From assembly GCA_029259945.1 (NCBI GenBank), contig JAJDEF010000005.1, positions 1 through 64,000 on the forward strand: a stretch of 64,000 nt of DNA, given 5' to 3'. Position numbers and translations under genes: made by a program. How positions within the stretch are numbered: position 1 is the first letter of the stretch; each line of letters opens with the position of its first letter. Below are positions 4,484 to 54,794 of the stretch, piece by piece. The notes under the pieces are model-generated. The model was not told the DNA's origin, searched no databases, and worked only from the letters and a program-made list of their open reading frames with translations. The DNA comes from Planctomycetota bacterium. GTDB lineage: Bacteria; Planctomycetota; Planctomycetia; Pirellulales; Lacipirellulaceae.

Positions 4484-5191
4484 ATGTACTGCGTCTTGTT
4501 TGACATCGATGGCACGTTGGTTCAAACCACCGGAGCGGGCATAAAAGCCTTTGCTGCGACCTTCGCCCAGTTATTCGATGTGGAAGAAATTTCTAAAGAC
4601 ATCCCCTTTGCTGGGCGTAGTGATCGGGCAATCACCCTGGATTTGATGAAAGCGCATGGCATCGACCCATCGGTCGAAAATTGGCAACGATTTACCGAGG
4701 CTTATTTGCAGCAATTAGATGTCATGTTGCCGCAGTGTCAGGGGCAAGTGCTGCCTGGGGTGCTGCCGTTACTTGATGTCCTACAGGGAATCGAGCATGT
4801 TTTGCTGGGTCTTTTGACCGGAAATATCAAGGCGGGAGCCGCTCGCAAACTAGGGCATTACGGCTTAGCCGACCGCTTCGGTTTTGGTGGCTTTGGCGAT
4901 GAATTGACAGATCGCAACGCAATCGCTCAAGTTGCTAAAGAACAAGCCCAAGCTAATGTAGATAGCGAAATCACCGGGGTGATGGTGATTGGAGATACAG
5001 TGCATGACGTTCGGTGCGCCAAGTCGATCGATGCCTTCGCGGTTGCCGTCGCCACGGGAGGGGCCTCGATCGACGAGTTGGCCGCATCTAGCCCCGATCT
5101 GCTGATCGAAGACCTAACCAATTCAGAAGCTCTGCTCGCAGAAGTTCTAGCTTCAGGTTGCACAAAAGAAGATGCGACAACACGTGGCTAA
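4484..5191 (+). CDS. HAD-family hydrolase (phosphoglycolate phosphatase-like)
   Basis: A cytoplasmic haloacid-dehalogenase-type phosphatase of 235 aa. Motif I is DIDGT with D7 (nucleophile) and D9. Motif II is the threonine in GLLTGN. A lysine follows in ARKLGHYGL, and motif IV is GDTVHD with two metal-binding aspartates. The helical cap sits between motifs I and II (subclass IA, as in Gph). Substrate is unknown. It precedes the MOSC gene by 14 nt and may be cotranscribed with it. Confidence 0.85.
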   Translation: MYCVLFDIDGTLVQTTGAGIKAFAATFAQLFDVEEISKDIPFAGRSDRAITLDLMKAHGIDPSVENWQRFTEAYLQQLDVMLPQCQGQVLPGVLPLLDVLQGIEHVLLGLLTGNIKAGAARKLGHYGLADRFGFGGFGDELTDRNAIAQVAKEQAQANVDSEITGVMVIGDTVHDVRCAKSIDAFAVAVATGGASIDELAASSPDLLIEDLTNSEALLAEVLASGCTKEDATTRG

Positions 5192-5205
5192 CCTCATCCA
5201 GTGCC

Positions 5206-6000
5206 ATGCCTGCTCTTCATCGAATCACGATTTACCCCATCAAGTCGCTTGATGGAGTCGAGGTGTCTACCGTCAACGTGCTCCCTAGCGGTGCGCTTGC
5301 AGGTGATCGCCGTTATGCCCTCGTCGACTGCGATGGCGGATTTGTGAATAGAAAACGGTATGCTGCCATTCATCTTATACGCGCGAAGTATAGTGATGAC
5401 TTCGAGAGAGTGACTCTCAGTTCCCCGGATGCGGAAAACTGTTTTTCGCTCAGAAACGAGCAAGATGCGATTGCAAATTGGTGCGGCAATATCTTGGGGG
5501 TGGCTTGCCAGTTGGTGGAAGGCGCTGGAAACGGGTTCCCTGACGATCGTGATGCGCCAGGGCCCACGCTCATTTCTACGTCGACACTTGCTAAAATAGC
5601 TACTTGGTTCGACGAGTTGGAAGTCGACGAGGTGAGACGACGATTTCGTGCAAACTTAGAAATCGATGCCAAACCTGAATTTTGGGAAGACCAACTGGTA
5701 GGCGACCCGAATGAGAACAAGCGATTTTGTGTCGGGAATACGACTTGGCAGGGCCGTGGTATCTGTCAGCGTTGCGTCGTACCGTCGCGCGATACCCACG
5801 ATGGTGCCCTCATCGCAGGATTTGCCCGTGAGTTTTCTCGGCGAAGGCAGACTTCGTTGCCTGAATGGTCGCCGATCCGGCATTTTGACCACTTTTATCG
5901 GGCGGCCATCAACACAGCACTTGAATCGTTGGACAACGGCAATGTCGTTCGAGTCGGCGATTCGGTTGAACTTATCGAAAAACAGTGCCTTGATCGCTAA
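5206..6000 (+). CDS. MOSC domain-containing protein
   Basis: A 264-aa protein with an N-terminal MOSC beta-barrel (ITIYPIKSLDGVEV, typical of MOSC_N) followed by a MOSC domain. The conserved cysteines are in GRGICQRCVVPSRDT. MOSC proteins bind molybdenum cofactor and include the mARC/YcbX reductases, which detoxify N-hydroxylated bases. No C-terminal ferredoxin domain is present, so reducing power must come from elsewhere. A moaA/D/E block lies far downstream. The ATG at 5206 was chosen because the protein then begins directly with the barrel; an in-frame ATG at 5158 would overlap the HAD gene. Confidence 0.8.
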   Translation: MPALHRITIYPIKSLDGVEVSTVNVLPSGALAGDRRYALVDCDGGFVNRKRYAAIHLIRAKYSDDFERVTLSSPDAENCFSLRNEQDAIANWCGNILGVACQLVEGAGNGFPDDRDAPGPTLISTSTLAKIATWFDELEVDEVRRRFRANLEIDAKPEFWEDQLVGDPNENKRFCVGNTTWQGRGICQRCVVPSRDTHDGALIAGFAREFSRRRQTSLPEWSPIRHFDHFYRAAINTALESLDNGNVVRVGDSVELIEKQCLDR

Positions 6001-6189: not shown

Positions 6190-7533
6190 ATGATGCTTCT
6201 GAGGATTCTTGCTATCACTCTGCTTATACCGCTAATCGCGGTCTGGTCGGGTTGCGCTTGTCCCTCCTCGTGTCGAGTTCCGGGTACTCCTGTTGCCCCA
6301 TGTCAATGTGAGCCTGCCGTAGCCGGAGGAGAGACTCCTGACCTTGCCTCCTTGAAGTGTGAGGACTGCAAGTTATTGCCGTTACCCTTGCCAACCGAGA
6401 CCTTTCAGCTTCTGGAACCCTCGATATGTCAATGTAGCGCAGTGACCAATGCTACGATGGCAAACATGGTTGAGCTAGAGCGTCATTGGGCAAAGGTGGT
6501 GATTGAATGCGATACCAAGAACGTACGTGAGAACCTCTGCATCGATCGAGATTTGCTGGCGTTACATGCCTATGGCTTGCGCAACGACGCCGCCGCTGCT
6601 GCGTTAGAGACTTTCTACCAATTGGCGGGGATTGAAACTCAAAAGGACTATCTAGCCAAAGGAATCGAGGAGACGGAGCGTACTCTCAAACGCATCGACC
6701 AGTTACGTGCTAACGGACTTGCTTTGCCAAACAGGATTAAACGTAGTTCGATTGTCGTCCGTCTTGGCGAACTCTCTGACAAGCAATGGCAGATGGATTT
6801 CCTGCGAATCCAGCTCAACGGTCAGCTGCAAAGGCTCATCGGCTGTCCACTCAACGAGCACACTTTTTACTGGCCAAATGTGGAGTGGACACCCGACTTG
6901 ACACCGTTGGACGTCGAGGCAGAACTTGCCGAGGGTTTAGCCAGTCGTTCAGATTTGCGTGGGCTGTCGCTCGTGATTTGCAATCTTGAGAAGTCAAAAT
7001 TGCCCGTTGCCCGTGGGGTGCTTAAGTTTGCCGACTCCACCGTCGGCAGCGTAGAGCCGATTGACGGTTTGATCCATGCCGTACGCTGTTTTCGCTGCAA
7101 TCAACACGAGGTGCCGGTTCGCTGTCGGCAGTTGGCGTTGTTCTATACGGAGACAGAAAATCTAGCGACGGCAGAAATAAAAAGTGCCGCCTACAAAGTG
7201 ACTCTGCAACAACAGAGAGTCGTATTAGCTCAAGAAACGGTTTTGGAACTTCGCAAGAACCTGCATGAACTCGAGGAAACTCGAAATATTAAAGACATCA
7301 CAGTCTTCGAAATCAGCCAACTGCGAGGCCAGCTCTATGAAGCAGAATCCAAATTAATCGAACAAGTCATTACTCTAAAATTAGCCTTCATCGGCTTGCG
7401 CAAAGCGCAGCATGCACTTCCTTCGGAATGTGGCTTCTCGCCTACCCTTTGTTGTGAAGGATGTTGTAACGGCGAGTGTATGTGTTGTTCAGAAAGTAAA
7501 TGCGACAAGAAAAAATGCACGTGTTGCCAATAG
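6190..7533 (+). CDS. Cysteine-rich TolC-like outer membrane lipoprotein
   Basis: A 447-aa lipoprotein with a hydrophobic signal and a lipobox-like VWSGC. The body is mostly long amphipathic helices (around residues 90-200 and 310-395) in the order seen in outer membrane efflux (TolC) proteins. It has about 28 cysteines: eleven near the N-terminus, five mid-protein, and twelve in the last 34 residues, arranged CC-x2-CC-x3-C-x-CC like a metallothionein. It converges with the DevABC-type exporter operon, so it may be the exporter's outer-membrane channel. The TolC-like call rests on helix pattern and context. An upstream in-frame start at 6100 is less likely because it would bury the signal peptide. 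Confidence 0.6.
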   Translation: MMLLRILAITLLIPLIAVWSGCACPSSCRVPGTPVAPCQCEPAVAGGETPDLASLKCEDCKLLPLPLPTETFQLLEPSICQCSAVTNATMANMVELERHWAKVVIECDTKNVRENLCIDRDLLALHAYGLRNDAAAAALETFYQLAGIETQKDYLAKGIEETERTLKRIDQLRANGLALPNRIKRSSIVVRLGELSDKQWQMDFLRIQLNGQLQRLIGCPLNEHTFYWPNVEWTPDLTPLDVEAELAEGLASRSDLRGLSLVICNLEKSKLPVARGVLKFADSTVGSVEPIDGLIHAVRCFRCNQHEVPVRCRQLALFYTETENLATAEIKSAAYKVTLQQQRVVLAQETVLELRKNLHELEETRNIKDITVFEISQLRGQLYEAESKLIEQVITLKLAFIGLRKAQHALPSECGFSPTLCCEGCCNGECMCCSESKCDKKKCTCCQ

Positions 7534-7552: not shown

Positions 7553-8695
7553 CTATCGGTTGAACAAAGCCTGACGTAGTTCTTCTTCAAAGGTAGCGCT
7601 AGTGGCGAGCACTGCCCGAAAGTCTTCTTTGCCCAAGGCGTAGAAGACCGATTTCTCTTTGGCGACGATCGTAGCATTTCTTGGCTCGTCGGTAATCAGG
7701 GCTGCCTCGCCAAAATACTGACCTTGTTTCAGTTCTGCGACTTTCTTTTTGCTCTGACCCTCGTCGATCAATACATCCACACTGCCACTTCGTATTAAGT
7801 AGAATAGATTGCCTGCCTCGCCCTGGCGAATGACGGTTTTGCCAGGTTCTGCCTTATGCACCATCATCTGATCTGCAATTTCAGCCAAAGTCGTTGGCGT
7901 AAGATCGGAGAACAGTGGGAAGTCTTTCAGGAATTCACAAATCACCGAGGTTTCTTGTACGGCAACGTCCGACTTAATCGTGCCATCGACCATGTTCACA
8001 ATCCGATCGGCAACATCCAAGATTCGATTGTCATGGGTCACCATAATAATCGTACAACCCTCGTCACGGGCGAGTTCTTGGAAAAGCGTCACTACCTCAC
8101 GGCCGGATTTTTCGTCCAGCGCGGCAGTTGGTTCATCGGCTAGGATTAATTTAGGCTTATGCACCAACCCACGCGCGATGGCGACTCGCTGTTTTTGTCC
8201 TCCCGATAGCGAATTCGGCTTGTAGTGAATGCGATCGCCAAGACCCAGTCGCGTCAGCAACGACGTAATGCGTCCCTCGGCGATCATCGGGTCGAGACCA
8301 ACTAGTTCCGCTGCCATGTTTACGTTTTGGAATGCCGTAAGTGATTCAAAGAGATTGTGTGCTTGAAAAATAAATCCCATCTCACGACGTAGCCGAACGA
8401 TTAAATCACGATCAGCTCCACACAGCTCGTTTCCTAGGACGAGAAGACTCCCTTCTTGCACAGAGCGAAGCGATCCGATGAGAGTCAGCAAAGTTGTTTT
8501 GCCTGAGCCCGAGGGGCCGGTCATAATCACGATTTCACCACGCCGAACTTCCAGATTGTTAGAAAACAAAGCCTGCTTACGTAGCTCGCCCTCGCCGAAG
8601 AAGTGATTGAGATTCTCAACCTTCACGGTCCTCGGCAAAAGCATGCCGTCCGTAAAGGCGCCACTAGTTGCAGGGATTGTCGTTTGTTCAGTCAT
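7553..8695 (-). CDS. ABC exporter ATPase fused to a cyclic-nucleotide-binding domain (DevA-like)
   Basis: Last gene of a four-gene exporter operon. Residues ~25-240 form a MacB/LolD/DevA-type ATPase: Walker A GPSGSGKTT, signature LSGGQKQRVAIARG, Walker B LILADEPTAALD and the switch histidine in VTHD. Residues ~250-375 form a cNMP-binding (Crp/PKA-regulatory) domain with the phosphate-binding-cassette-like stretch FGEAALITDEPRNATIV. The extra domain suggests that transport is gated by a cyclic nucleotide or similar ligand, which is unusual for this ATPase class. The alanine preceding TIV follows the PRxA pattern typical of functional cassettes. It lies 49 nt downstream of the second permease gene. 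Confidence 0.9.
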   Translation of the reverse strand: MTEQTTIPATSGAFTDGMLLPRTVKVENLNHFFGEGELRKQALFSNNLEVRRGEIVIMTGPSGSGKTTLLTLIGSLRSVQEGSLLVLGNELCGADRDLIVRLRREMGFIFQAHNLFESLTAFQNVNMAAELVGLDPMIAEGRITSLLTRLGLGDRIHYKPNSLSGGQKQRVAIARGLVHKPKLILADEPTAALDEKSGREVVTLFQELARDEGCTIIMVTHDNRILDVADRIVNMVDGTIKSDVAVQETSVICEFLKDFPLFSDLTPTTLAEIADQMMVHKAEPGKTVIRQGEAGNLFYLIRSGSVDVLIDEGQSKKKVAELKQGQYFGEAALITDEPRNATIVAKEKSVFYALGKEDFRAVLATSATFEEELRQALFNR

Positions 8696-8744: not shown

Positions 8745-9935
8745 TTAGAACAAAGAGGCTGGGTCGGCGGAGAGCAGCTTTCGCACGGCAAGCATGCCGG
8801 ACGCTACGCACATGGCTACAGTAGCGGCATAAACAAACGCTACGCCGTGGTCGGTCATAGTCATCAGCAGCCCGGTCTGTGCCGAGAGCCCGCTATAAAG
8901 TACTCGACTTGCGATAGCGCCAGGTATAAATCCTAGTAGTGAAAGTAGCATCGATTCGACGAGGATAAGGCGAATGAAATATCGAGTTGGGTAGCCCATA
9001 GCTTTCAGCGTTGCAAATTCAGGCATGTGGTCGGCGATATCAGAAAAGATCACTTGATAGCAGATGACCATTCCCACCACGAAACCAATCATCTTGCCGG
9101 CTAGAAAGATCGTACCGATCGGGGTGCTTTTGTCCCAGAAGTTGATTTCCTGAGTTCGAAATTCATCGCGTGTAAGGATATCAACGTCGTTGCCTAATGT
9201 CCTGGATAGAAGGTCTTGGACGGATTCAATTTTAAATCCGTCCTGCACATGAACAACTCCGATATCAATAACACTCAAGGGATCGCCAAAACGTTTACGG
9301 TGCGGGAAATATTTGGCGAAATTCTCAGCACCCATGATGAGATTGCCATCGTGAGCGAAATCAGTTCCCATAGCGAACGTACCCACAAGCGTGACTTTTT
9401 TATTGGTTAGTTCTACAGCTTGTTGAGCCAGTAATTGATCGTCATTTCGTGGAAACGCAAACTTCTTCGCCTTGCTTTTTCGGTCGATCAACGCAGTGTC
9501 AGGCTGACGAAGACGGTTGATTTGTTCTCGGATCTCCGGCGCTCTGAATATCGGGTCATCCAAATAGAATCCTATCGAGCGGAGGGGATAGCCAGGGTTT
9601 CCTATTCCTCCCTCCATTTTCCGTAGCATCGAGGTGGTTAACTCCGAAAAGACCGGGTAAGCACCTTGCACGCCTGAACAGGAGCGAGCTTGGTAGATTC
9701 GTGAAAGAGGAAATCGTTTTTCCGCGGCCAACGTGTACTTTGCTTTACTGATTAAGAATAACTCGCCTTGCATATCATCAATGATTTTTACTTGGCTGTC
9801 GAAAAGCGCATTTTGAAATCCAACCTGGGTAAACATCAAAAGCACCGCGAAGGCGATGCCTGCTATCGCCACGGCAAGCCGACGCCAATCGTGCGTCAGA
9901 TTCTTCCAAGCCAGTGGTATGCGTCGATTTGACAT
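8745..9935 (-). CDS. DevC/FtsX-type ABC exporter permease (second)
   Basis: A 396-aa inner-membrane permease of the MacB/FtsX fold. It has one N-terminal membrane helix (~15-38), a large periplasmic domain, then three C-terminal helices, with the FtsX-like stretch EFATLKAMGYPTRYFIRLILVE as the cytoplasmic coupling region. It ends in SADPASLF, closely matching the QADPADLF end of the neighbouring permease. The two are diverged paralogues and probably form a heterodimer with the downstream ATPase. The gene follows the first permease gene by 55 nt. Confidence 0.88.
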   Translation of the reverse strand: MSNRRIPLAWKNLTHDWRRLAVAIAGIAFAVLLMFTQVGFQNALFDSQVKIIDDMQGELFLISKAKYTLAAEKRFPLSRIYQARSCSGVQGAYPVFSELTTSMLRKMEGGIGNPGYPLRSIGFYLDDPIFRAPEIREQINRLRQPDTALIDRKSKAKKFAFPRNDDQLLAQQAVELTNKKVTLVGTFAMGTDFAHDGNLIMGAENFAKYFPHRKRFGDPLSVIDIGVVHVQDGFKIESVQDLLSRTLGNDVDILTRDEFRTQEINFWDKSTPIGTIFLAGKMIGFVVGMVICYQVIFSDIADHMPEFATLKAMGYPTRYFIRLILVESMLLSLLGFIPGAIASRVLYSGLSAQTGLLMTMTDHGVAFVYAATVAMCVASGMLAVRKLLSADPASLF

Positions 9936-9990
9936 TTTTCTGTGTCGATTTTAGGGGTTGGAGGTTTGGGACATGAGGTTTATGGGTTGG

Positions 9991-11256
9991 CTAAAATAAG
10001 TCGGCAGGGTCTGCCTGAAAAAGTTTGCGAAGGGCTCCTAGCCCTGAAAGAACACAAATGACGACCGCCAAGACGAAGACTAGGGCCATGATTTCTTTGG
10101 TCATATACATGGGCATTCCCGATTCGGCTTCGACGATTCTGTAGAGTACCCAAGAGATCGCTAGCGATGGCAGATACCCAACAATTGCAAGCAACACCGA
10201 TTGTTGTAGAACGACACGCGCCAAAAACTTATTGCTATGTCCCATCGCTTTTAAGGTCGCGTATTCGCCCATCATATTGGCAATGTCGCTTGAGAGAACC
10301 TGGTAGACAATCGCGACGCCTACGAACACCGCAACCCAGACTCCAAGCTGAAAGATCTGCCCCAGAGGGGTGTCAACGACCCAACGACGTTCTTCGTGCT
10401 GATTGACTTCTTCGCGGGTTAAGATTTCTACATCTACGTTTGTCAATAAAGCAGCACGGTGATGCTGCTGCGATTTGGCATCGCTAACCGAGGCTGGAAT
10501 TCCAAAAATATGCTGAAGTTTTGCTTTGACCGCTTCAACCTGGCTAGGGTCATGCAGTTTTAGGAGCCCAAAATTCACCTCATTAATCGTTTGCCAGGGG
10601 CAGGCTCGGACATAGCCTTCGGGATTGGTCAGGCAGGCACCGTTCGAGGCCATGCCGGTGCCAAGTTTGAAAAGCCCTACGATACGAACGCGACGCGGAC
10701 CCAGCGCAGTTTCTGTACCAATATCTGCCCGACTAAACTCGTCGCCCTGGGCTGGGCCATATTCTGATTTCGATTCCGAGTCGATGAGTACAAAACGAGG
10801 GTCCGATAACTGACGGGCCTGTTTGCAAATGTCGTCCCGGGTAAATCCGGGGTCGTTGGGATCGGTTCCCATCGTGATAATGCCGCGCCATTGGCCTGAA
10901 AGATCCTCGGTGTCTGATGCCTCTTGGTTTAGTGGTGCGTTACTTGTAATCGGAATCTGCCATTCACTAAGCCCCAAATAGAATGGTCGTGCATGCGAAA
11001 CTTCAGGCAGAGAAGCGGCTTGATAAACACGCGCCCGCGCGAAGTCGCGTGGCTCAGTCAAATGCAAGTAGGCGGGCGAACGCAATAAGAGATCAAAATC
11101 TAAGGCGTCGTAGATTTGGGTTGCCGTCTTTTGGATGGCACCGAGGAAACCCAATTGCATGAAAATTAGAATGACGGCAAAGCCCACTCCAGCCACGCCA
11201 ATCGACGTGCGGACTTTGTTATGCGTTAGATTCTTCCATGCCAGTGGGGTGCTCAT
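9991..11256 (-). CDS. DevC/FtsX-type ABC exporter permease (first)
   Basis: A 421-aa FtsX-fold permease. It has an N-terminal helix (~15-40), a periplasmic domain of about 250 residues and three C-terminal helices, with EYATLKAMGHSNKFL as coupling region. It overlaps the membrane fusion gene upstream by 4 nt (ATGA), so translation is coupled. Cyanobacterial DevC exports heterocyst glycolipids through a DevBCA-TolC complex. The cargo here is unknown. Confidence 0.88.
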   Translation of the reverse strand: MSTPLAWKNLTHNKVRTSIGVAGVGFAVILIFMQLGFLGAIQKTATQIYDALDFDLLLRSPAYLHLTEPRDFARARVYQAASLPEVSHARPFYLGLSEWQIPITSNAPLNQEASDTEDLSGQWRGIITMGTDPNDPGFTRDDICKQARQLSDPRFVLIDSESKSEYGPAQGDEFSRADIGTETALGPRRVRIVGLFKLGTGMASNGACLTNPEGYVRACPWQTINEVNFGLLKLHDPSQVEAVKAKLQHIFGIPASVSDAKSQQHHRAALLTNVDVEILTREEVNQHEERRWVVDTPLGQIFQLGVWVAVFVGVAIVYQVLSSDIANMMGEYATLKAMGHSNKFLARVVLQQSVLLAIVGYLPSLAISWVLYRIVEAESGMPMYMTKEIMALVFVLAVVICVLSGLGALRKLFQADPADLF

Positions 11257-12620
11257 TGTATCGCACTGCCGCCCGTGGGACGGTCTGTTGCTTGATTGTC
11301 GTCGTCAGATGCGCTTTTCCCGAATTCCACAGTCACTTGCATGCCTACATGTTTGGCCGCATGCTGAGTCGGCGTTTCAGATCGGCTACCTGCACTGTCG
11401 GGCTCATCGATTTCTATGCGAACTTCAACGATACTACGGTCAGCGGGGGCGAGGGGATTGCGATTTGATAGCCCTGGAGAAGCAACAAGCCGCCCAATAC
11501 GGACGACATGCCCTCGGATGCCTCCCGATCGCTTTTGTGTCTCTGGGTCGATCTTACCATCTGCATAGATTCCCGAAAACGCGGGACTTCGTAGTGTTAC
11601 TGTTTGCCCTTCTCTAAGCTCTTTGATGTCTGCTTCATACACTTCGGCGATACAGATCATTTTCCGTAGATCTCCCAGCTGCATGATGGGGGCCTGGGTG
11701 ACGACTTCGCCGCGACGCAAAAAAACTTTTAGGACGGTAAACCGTGGTTGCTCTATTGATTCTTCTTCGGTGACTTCGATGTCATTGCTTGCGTCATGAT
11801 TGTCGAGATCCTCGTTGAGAATTTTACTTAAAGCGATTGCTGAAACATTCGGGGCAAGCAATATCGAACGCTTTAAGGCTTCCTGGGCAACTTCGATTTC
11901 TTGTTCAACAACCAGTTTCTCGTAATTTTTGGTGGCTTGCTGAACGGCGGTATTGGCAACTTTGATATTTGCGTCGGCTGCGATCACCGCCAAATCTGCG
12001 GCATGCGATGCTGAAATCAAGCGGCCATAAGCAATGTTGTAATCCTGGCTCGCCAAGTCCATTTGATTTTTTTGTTTGTCCAACTGGTGTTGCGTGACAA
12101 GCTCGGGGTCAGACAATCGTAGATGTTCTAACTTTTGATATTCTTTCGCAGACAGATCACGCGAAACTTTCAACGCCCCGAGTTTACCTTGCTGTAGTTC
12201 AAGCTCAGCTTTCTTGGCTTCAGCCTGAGCTTTGGAAGCCTTGGCCTGTGCCAGTTGGGCTTGAGCAAGCTGAACTTGTTGTAGGTGTTTTTGGTCGGCG
12301 AGGTCTCTCTTCTTGATGAGAGAGACCAGTTGGGCTCGGCCCATGTCGTAGCTCGACAGTCGACCTAGGATGCCATCTTCGGGGGCAAGTTCGTTCTCCT
12401 CAATGCTGTATAGCTCTTGAAGGCCATCGCCAGGGGTTGCTCGGATATCGATGATGCCACTTGCTGGTTCAAGGCGTCCTAGCGAATAGATGGTACGCGT
12501 GCCACCATCCTCAACAGCAGAGGGTTGTGTGGGGGACAGCCACTCGCAGCCTGGCAGGGCGAAGCAAATAGCGATCGCTAATGCCGTTGAAGCTTGCAGG
12601 CGTTGGCAGGTAGAGGGCAT
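11253..12620 (-). CDS. Membrane fusion lipoprotein of the exporter (DevB/HlyD-like)
   Basis: First gene of the exporter operon, 455 aa. It has a lipoprotein signal ending in lipobox ALPGC, a short beta region (GRLEPASGIIDIRA), then a long coiled-coil hairpin rich in Ala, Gln, Lys and Glu (~90-225). The barrel half follows, including GDLRKMICIAEVYEADI and EGQTVTLRSPAF, which are typical of DevB/HlyD adaptors. Most DevB proteins have a membrane anchor rather than a lipid, so the lipobox is worth noting. It bridges the permeases to an outer-membrane channel, plausibly the convergent TolC-like lipoprotein. The ATG at 12620 directly precedes the signal sequence. Confidence 0.87.
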   Translation of the reverse strand: MPSTCQRLQASTALAIAICFALPGCEWLSPTQPSAVEDGGTRTIYSLGRLEPASGIIDIRATPGDGLQELYSIEENELAPEDGILGRLSSYDMGRAQLVSLIKKRDLADQKHLQQVQLAQAQLAQAKASKAQAEAKKAELELQQGKLGALKVSRDLSAKEYQKLEHLRLSDPELVTQHQLDKQKNQMDLASQDYNIAYGRLISASHAADLAVIAADANIKVANTAVQQATKNYEKLVVEQEIEVAQEALKRSILLAPNVSAIALSKILNEDLDNHDASNDIEVTEEESIEQPRFTVLKVFLRRGEVVTQAPIMQLGDLRKMICIAEVYEADIKELREGQTVTLRSPAFSGIYADGKIDPETQKRSGGIRGHVVRIGRLVASPGLSNRNPLAPADRSIVEVRIEIDEPDSAGSRSETPTQHAAKHVGMQVTVEFGKSASDDDNQATDRPTGGSAIQ

Positions 12621-53508: not shown

Positions 53509-53976
53509 TCATGCAGAGGGGGTCGACTTGATCCTTGCCGCCATCTGTCGATGTTTTTCGTGGGTTTCCAGATCAAACTGTCCGTGGGTGTCCATCTCTT
53601 CGACGCCACGGTATTGGGCATCGCAGCGGTAGCACATTAGGGCGTCGCCTACCAAGGTATAAAGCAGGACGTCGGCAAGTGCGGTCGCGAACAAGATGCC
53701 GAACGTCCAGGTAAGGTTGGTGTGATACCAGGCAATCGAACTGCCGATGATTCCGATGCCCACCAAAGCGACGCCGATTCGCTGAGGAAAGTCTTTACGG
53801 ACATAGAGGTCGGTGCTTGGACAGGCTAGGCAGCGTTTTATCCGATTTTCGTTGATCGCGTCACTTTTCACGGCGATTTGCCCGTTGCAATGGGGGCATG
53901 AGAGTTCGCACGTCTTGGAATCGAATTCAGCGCGGACACCTTCATGACAAGTCGGGCAGGCATAGGTGATGTTCAT
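53509..53976 (-). CDS. Zinc-ribbon membrane protein, unknown function
   Basis: A 155-aa protein. It starts with a zinc ribbon (ACPTCHEGV, then LSCPHCNGQIAV), followed by a second cysteine pair (RCLACPST). Two membrane helices follow (~75-92 and ~97-117), then CYRCDAQYRG, a third cysteine pair. Reading frame upstream to 54366 is not part of the gene: the ATG at 53976 gives MNITYACPTC. It is close to the FAD gene (36 nt upstream of it) and may share its transcript. Confidence 0.65.
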   Translation of the reverse strand: MNITYACPTCHEGVRAEFDSKTCELSCPHCNGQIAVKSDAINENRIKRCLACPSTDLYVRKDFPQRIGVALVGIGIIGSSIAWYHTNLTWTFGILFATALADVLLYTLVGDALMCYRCDAQYRGVEEMDTHGQFDLETHEKHRQMAARIKSTPSA

Positions 53977-54026
53977 GGTCAGGTTCTTTTTTTGGGGTAC
54001 GCGCTGTGGCAACTCTTGTGGCTGTA

Positions 54027-54794
54027 TTATAGCGGGAAAAGTGACTCGGTAGAAAGTAGTAGAGACATGGTTTCGCCCACGAAGGTGCCAATCACAGCCA
54101 CATAAAGCAGGCCGGTGGCGCTTTGGGTGTTGGGGATATCGAGAGTCTTCCAAGTCATCCAAGTCAAGATGGCGACCCCAAGAAGTCCAAAGGTCCATCG
54201 CAACGTAACAAACATGAGGAGAGAGGTTGCCAATGGGCTTGCGTAGGTAACTTCTCCCCAGAACCCAAGGCCGGCTACGATGATCTGGAGCAGGGTTGCA
54301 AATCCTAGGGCAATGAGCAGATGTCTGAGTGGGACGAGTTCCATCGTCGGCGAATTGAGATACCAATGGCCGAGTAGCATGGCAGCCATGGTGAGGCCTA
54401 GCAACATGCCTGAGCTGACGGGGGCAATGTGGCGGAGCGCATTCGCATAGCTATTTTCGATGGCGCCTTCTGGTGAATAAAGCGATGTGGCTGCTAGCGA
54501 ACTACCAACTAGAGCGCAAAGTGCTACTACGACCAGCGACATGCGACCGCCCCTAGGCTTTTCGTACAACCAAAAGACCGAACCGAAATAGCTGCCGACT
54601 GCAGCGAAAACAGCAGGCCAAAAAGCAGAGGGTGCCACCGAGTTGCTTAGAAACGCGGCGAGTGTTGCTAGGCCGAGCGTTACGTATAAATGGTTGCGAT
54701 AATACCCACTCGCTATTTTCTGTGGCGACGTTATCGCCATGCCGGCTGCGAGGCCGAACGTGAGCCGTAAAAGAAACTGAATGAGAAGTCCCAT
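54027..54794 (-). CDS. Polytopic membrane protein, unknown function
   Basis: A 255-aa protein with about eight hydrophobic segments and short loops, no recognised domain. It follows folE by 15 nt in the same direction, so it may be cotranscribed. Confidence 0.65.
   Translation of the reverse strand: MGLLIQFLLRLTFGLAAGMAITSPQKIASGYYRNHLYVTLGLATLAAFLSNSVAPSAFWPAVFAAVGSYFGSVFWLYEKPRGGRMSLVVVALCALVGSSLAATSLYSPEGAIENSYANALRHIAPVSSGMLLGLTMAAMLLGHWYLNSPTMELVPLRHLLIALGFATLLQIIVAGLGFWGEVTYASPLATSLLMFVTLRWTFGLLGVAILTWMTWKTLDIPNTQSATGLLYVAVIGTFVGETMSLLLSTESLFPL

Follow-up and report, generated by a model that had tools for sequence, protein, structure and literature searches.

The window, a stretch of 64,000 nucleotides from a planctomycete genome (3.48 Mb, 92% complete), encodes a protein of 447 residues in which 28 cysteines (6.3%) are combined with what looks like the helical body of an outer-membrane efflux protein. 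The locus thus raises the question of what a TolC-like protein would do with so many cysteines, and whether it can be an exit channel at all. The original prediction had described it as a TolC-like lipoprotein with a metallothionein-like tail that faces an exporter operon, and that may bind metal or be cross-linked while acting as the exit channel. The features on which we base our analysis are collected in Table 1.

Table 1. Positions in the window of the TolC-like gene, its parts and the facing exporter genes
Feature	Coordinates	Strand	Basis
Cysteine-rich TolC-like lipoprotein, 447 aa	6190..7533	+	ORF; hhalign against TolC/OEP profile, prob 97.4, E 9.5e-12
Predicted lipoprotein signal peptide and lipobox, residues 1-22, lipidated Cys22	6190..6255	+	Cys22 conservation; L/V at -3 and G at -1 in homologues
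N-terminal Pro/Cys-rich extension, residues 23-69	6256..6396	+	Alignment; Cys24 and Cys38 invariant in closest group
'CQC' motif, residues 80-82, start of helix H1; ancestral in the order, judging by the alignment	6427..6435	+	Cys82 in 23/23 (closest group) and 20/28 (more distant)
Loop 1 (Cys107 to Cys117), site of TolC hairpin S1/S2; ~35 aa below canonical length	6508..6540	+	Constant 72-76 aa segment in all homologues; H1-to-YF distance; strandless in models
Loop 2, residues 281-312 (Cys300, Cys303, Cys312), site of TolC hairpin S4/S5; ~28 aa shorter	7030..7125	+	TolC alignment; Cys conservation
Cys-rich C-terminal tail, residues 413-447, core EC-x6-C-x3-CC-x3-C-x2-C	7426..7530	+	Core spacing in 13/24 members of the bacterial family
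DevA-type ABC ATPase with C-terminal cNMP-binding domain	7553..8695	-	TIGR02982, 338.7 bits (cut-off 295.8); PF00027, 3e-22
DevC permease 2	8745..9935	-	TIGR01185, 312.8 bits (cut-off 290.35)
DevC permease 1, probable heterodimer partner	9991..11256	-	TIGR01185, 249.8 bits, below cut-off 290.35; FtsX domain above cut-off
DevB-like membrane fusion lipoprotein (HlyD type)	11253..12620	-	PF16576, 27.8 bits (cut-off 30); one Cys outside signal/lipobox

A lipoprotein homologous to TolC

The opposite strand of the reading frame is full of stops and was ruled out as an alternative coding frame; translation may instead begin at the second ATG (6193), as in most homologues. The product has a hydrophobic stretch and a lipobox with Cys22 and a G at -1. 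In our alignment, Cys22 is kept in all 23 members of the group of closest homologues and in 26 of 28 more distant ones, and this conserved lipobox bears out the predicted lipoprotein.

The homology to TolC is much clearer for the family than for the single sequence. Searched alone, the window protein matches the Pfam OEP family (PF02321) with an E-value of 0.058 and 13.6 bits, below the 22-bit cut-off. At E ≤ 0.01 the family is matched by 17 of 23 homologues, and 6 of 10 homologues scanned singly exceed the gathering cut-off (22 bits). A profile of 51 sequences, compared using hhalign with TolC, CusC and the canonical OEPs of the same genome, aligned over residues 140-412 (prob 97.4, E 9.5e-12), and repeat 2 alone aligned with TolC at E 6e-15. 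The first ten matches in a profile search of the PDB were TolC, with the register kept over helices 7-8, though at E-values of only 0.02-0.07. Two structure predictions of monomers, made with three sequences, reached pLDDT of 40 and 48, and were used only for helix positions and for ranking by Foldseek. With a low-confidence model, the top 22 Foldseek matches were all outer membrane factors (OMFs; best E 5e-3), so that the structural comparison with TolC and OprM originally proposed as a check went in the expected direction, on a model of low confidence. On the hhalign score, the OEP matches in relatives and the Foldseek ranking, the product is a TolC/OEP homologue, as had been predicted for its body.

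Full-length homologues occur across the class Planctomycetia, and two 'Planctomycetota bacterium' MAGs carry homologues that are 72% and 65% identical. None of full length was seen beyond the class, matches in the rest of the phylum being partial and in proteins mostly of more than 500 aa. No relatives were found on viral contigs, no paralogue was detected in the same genome at E ≤ 0.001, and in the open literature neither this protein family nor any TolC homologue without a barrel was found described. Another protein of this genome that matches OEP (contig C38, C38:96800-99800; 862 aa) has a Cys-rich N-terminal stretch (NCVDCKKGSKCWKC).

A dedicated partner of a DevBCA-type exporter

The operon on the other strand (DevB-DevC-DevC-DevA) ends 19 bp downstream of the TolC-like gene, tail-to-tail with it. 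Its DevA and DevC2 score over the curated cut-offs of their models and DevC1 under, and we assign it to exporters of the DevBCA type. We found the TolC-like protein in the genome under study and in 29 of the relatives listed. Across 59 genomes, the gene and a DevC over the cut-off are both present in 29, only one of them in 4 and neither in 26 (Fisher p 2e-12, shared ancestry not corrected for); three of the four discordant genomes are 76-87% complete and the remaining one has a single DevC. The TolC-like gene does not adjoin devBCA in every genome, but wherever the two are linked they lie tail-to-tail, both in the host's family and in further families of the order and of the class. This co-occurrence and the conserved convergent gene order are strong evidence that the TolC-like protein is a dedicated partner of the DevBCA-type exporter, and they support the predicted functional link between the facing genes.

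Near-full-length DevA matches recur in relatives, and the cNMP-binding domain of DevA suggests that export could be cNMP-controlled. The two different devC genes in tandem (8745-11256, minus strand) recur as a pair with the TolC-like gene across relatives, and suggest a heterodimeric permease as in LolCE. Genes for MOSC-domain and HAD proteins lie upstream of the TolC-like gene (5158-6000 and 4484-5191, plus strand), and are found close to it again in many genomes from the bacterial family. As to cargo, DevBCA in cyanobacteria (Anabaena) exports heterocyst glycolipids together with HgdD (PMC8277102), and a lipid is therefore the default guess here.

The barrel-building segments are missing or truncated

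Outer membrane factors are generally described as including a transmembrane beta-barrel, to which TolC brings two transmembrane strands per repeat (PMC8277102). The proteins of this family are too short at the corresponding sites. From the start of H1 to a Y-F anchor in H3 there are ~70 aa, compared to ~102-110 in TolC, CusC and the OEPs of the same genome, and from H5 to helix 7 in repeat 2 there are ~95 aa, compared to ~123 in canonical proteins (distances counted by eye from sequences and alignments). By length and alignment, the two strands per repeat that define a canonical OMF are thus short of ~35 and ~28 residues. The segment comprising H1 and H2 is near-constant over the 51 homologues (72-76 aa), which leaves ~10 residues between the two helices, and this connection is therefore too short for a membrane-spanning hairpin. 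Against the Pfam OEP profile, no best match in the family begins before position 78. TolC and CusC, by comparison, align from positions 2 and 6, and most of this genome's canonical OEPs cover almost the full profile. Both models are strandless at the hairpin sites; their confidence is low at these loops, so the absence of a barrel rests mainly on length. On these lengths, a 12-stranded outer-membrane barrel looks impossible for the family, although the models do not prove that strands are absent, and loop 2 could conceivably form a short hairpin.

The protein could still be an ordinary TolC/OprM exit channel that spans the outer membrane through a short or divergent beta-barrel, with the tail merely decorating the equatorial domain. 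The OEP homology and the tripartite context would fit such a channel, as would the ~30 residues remaining in loop 2, but the very short H1-H2 connection, the near-constancy of the segment around it and the contrast with the profile matches of canonical OEPs make it unlikely. The original term 'exit channel' is thus doubtful in its usual sense.

Cysteines crowd at the outer-membrane side

The cysteine counts given in the original prediction proved exact on recount: eleven in the N-terminal part (residues 22, 24, 28, 38, 40, 57, 60, 80, 82, 107 and 117), five in the middle (219, 264, 300, 303 and 312) and twelve in the last 34 residues (414, 421, 422, 425, 426, 430, 432, 433, 438, 443, 445 and 446). 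With 28 cysteines in the protein, such a cluster of 12 at the C-terminus has a hypergeometric probability of 7e-8, and among the 41 non-overlapping ORFs of at least 200 aa in the window, whose median is 1.4%, this protein ranks first in cysteine share. Elsewhere in the window, an ORF of 229 aa (53509-54198, minus strand) has 11 cysteines, CxxC pairs and a hydrophobic segment, with weak zinc-ribbon-like matches only.

The cysteines are also strikingly uneven along the fold. In the closest group their share is 0.13% in helices H2-H4 and 0.05% in H7-H8, compared to 9.9% in the N-terminal extension, 12.8% in loop 1, 9.0% in loop 2 and 23.7% in the C-terminal part. More distant members have the same pattern in weaker form (0.25% and 0.15% in the helices; 2.0%, 6.3%, 3.8% and 5.3% in the other parts). 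Placed on a TolC-like topology, every Cys-rich part sits on the outer-membrane side, and the periplasmic helices avoid cysteine. Judged from the alignments, this one-ended bias is older than the tail itself. Among the distant members, those with cysteines in loop 1 tend to have them in loop 2 as well (p 0.003, or 0.06 once close relatives are removed). However, several homologues lack the loop cysteines, so a disulfide clamp formed by them would not be universal.

In the closest group, Cys82 and Cys414 are present in 23 of 23 proteins and Cys421 in 22, and the alignments indicate that Cys82, where H1 begins, and Cys414, where H8 ends, were already present in the ancestor of the order. What follows 'EC' in the tail, and most cysteines of the body, occur in one bacterial family only, that of the host, and not in homologues from the rest of the order. 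The tail is therefore an elaboration that the basic function of the protein family does not need. Within the bacterial family the tail has mostly 5-14 cysteines, with exactly six in several of the shortest tails. One genus (g3) without the tail core is also without Cys312, and this joint absence hints at a contact between the two. A frameshift or chance origin of the tail was ruled out, as its cysteines are kept over genera. Homologues lacking cysteines at both ends had been named as what would speak against the original prediction, and on this point the outcome is mixed; the cysteines and the core spacing turned out to be conserved within the bacterial family, while the tail is lacking elsewhere in the order.

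Disulfides, metal or wall

Two chemistries could explain such a tail. Its density of CC, CxC and CxxC motifs, and a length and number of distal cysteines that vary as in metal-chelating tails, would suit a periplasmic metallothionein-like or metal-sensing module in which reduced thiols of the tail and cap coordinate Cu(I) or Zn. However, no metallothionein or other metal-binding family in Pfam or NCBIfam is matched up to E 1, the conserved neighbours include no metal-handling genes, the exporter belongs with the lipid/drug exporters of the DevBCA type, cysteines also occupy the two loops and the N-terminal part, and the genome encodes an oxidising VKOR-DsbA-like enzyme. We regard a metal module as improbable, and have dropped the label 'metallothionein-like'.

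In the enzyme in question, VKOR is joined to a DsbA-like thioredoxin domain that has a CTHC motif (contig C23, C23:64300-67500); it is a likely envelope disulfide catalyst. DsbA itself was ruled out as the oxidase: PF01323 has no match in the genome, and the VKOR fusion was found instead. VKOR was not detectable in several tail-bearing genomes. Because the genome encodes this fusion and the neighbours include no metal genes, disulfides are favoured over metal, and a disulfide clamp appears more likely than a metal-binding tail. Of the two fates originally offered for the cysteines, cross-linking thus fits better and metal binding is unsupported. The mature cysteine count is odd in many members, leaving unpaired thiols; we dropped its parity as a test of full disulfide pairing, as odd and even counts are both common and hence uninformative. 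DevB is an unlikely disulfide partner of the tail, having one cysteine outside its signal and lipobox.

Disulfides could also be intermolecular, with the cap tying the exporter to the Cys-rich protein wall (YTV-type) of planctomycetes instead of stapling its own trimer. Preparations of planctomycete cell walls contain Cys-rich YTV proteins (PMC8567305), and the tail differs between genera. On the other hand, no wall protein partner was identified, and the conserved core spacing suggests bonds that are intramolecular or between protomers; the TolC-like protein has no Pfam match to the YTV domain at E up to 1. We therefore consider attachment to the wall very doubtful.

A proposed disulfide-capped conduit

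These observations are best accommodated, and in our view fairly probably explained, by an exporter conduit that is anchored to the outer membrane and in which a disulfide-stapled cap replaces the barrel as the clamp. The TolC-like protein would be the outer-membrane-side part of a tripartite exporter of the DevBCA type (MacB/LolCDE superfamily), anchored in the inner leaflet of the outer membrane by the lipid on Cys22. Its two long helical hairpins per protomer would probably form a trimeric alpha-helical tube, as in TolC, which the DevB adaptor probably meets at the tip. At the end where TolC has its barrel, the loops, the N-terminal extension and the C-terminal tail, all Cys-rich, would make up a cap, and we infer that oxidation of its cysteines to disulfides staples termini and loops, probably also between protomers. 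By analogy with cyanobacterial DevBCA, the cargo would most likely be a lipid or glycolipid destined for the outer membrane.

A further and more speculative possibility, which we put forward only tentatively and would not expect to hold in full, is that Planctomycetia have a tripartite exporter with no outer-membrane pore, whose lipid-anchored, barrel-less and disulfide-capped tube passes lipids from DevBCA into the inner leaflet of the outer membrane rather than secreting them. The argument is that a closed cap implies delivery to the inner leaflet in place of secretion. If a class-wide, exporter-linked tube without barrel segments is real, tripartite pumps would not need a pore in the outer membrane and could act, for example, as lipid bridges across the periplasm, and cysteine bonds would be seen to take over as the clamp. 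It would also give planctomycete envelope biology a concrete target.

Comparison with known systems

Like TolC, OprM and CusC (PF02321), the planctomycete protein has a two-repeat body of long helices with helical tips, and partners in an adaptor and an inner-membrane transporter; the lipoprotein anchor is shared with OprM and CusC. It differs from all three in that its beta-hairpins are deleted (repeat 1) or truncated (repeat 2), and in its Cys-rich cap and tail, E. coli TolC having no cysteine and CusC three. The YTV proteins are likewise Cys-rich envelope proteins of planctomycetes, but are unrelated in sequence. The permease pair of MacB/FtsX type with one ATPase gene resembles LolCDE, whereas the adaptor and the TolC-like partner do not, and the subunits match models of DevA and DevC rather than LolC/E. 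Anabaena DevBCA-HgdD likewise has DevA, DevC and subunits like DevB working with a TolC homologue. However, the planctomycete operon has two DevC genes where Anabaena has one, and a cNMP domain on DevA, and its TolC-like gene is dedicated and linked to the exporter and has no evident barrel, whereas Anabaena uses one shared HgdD.
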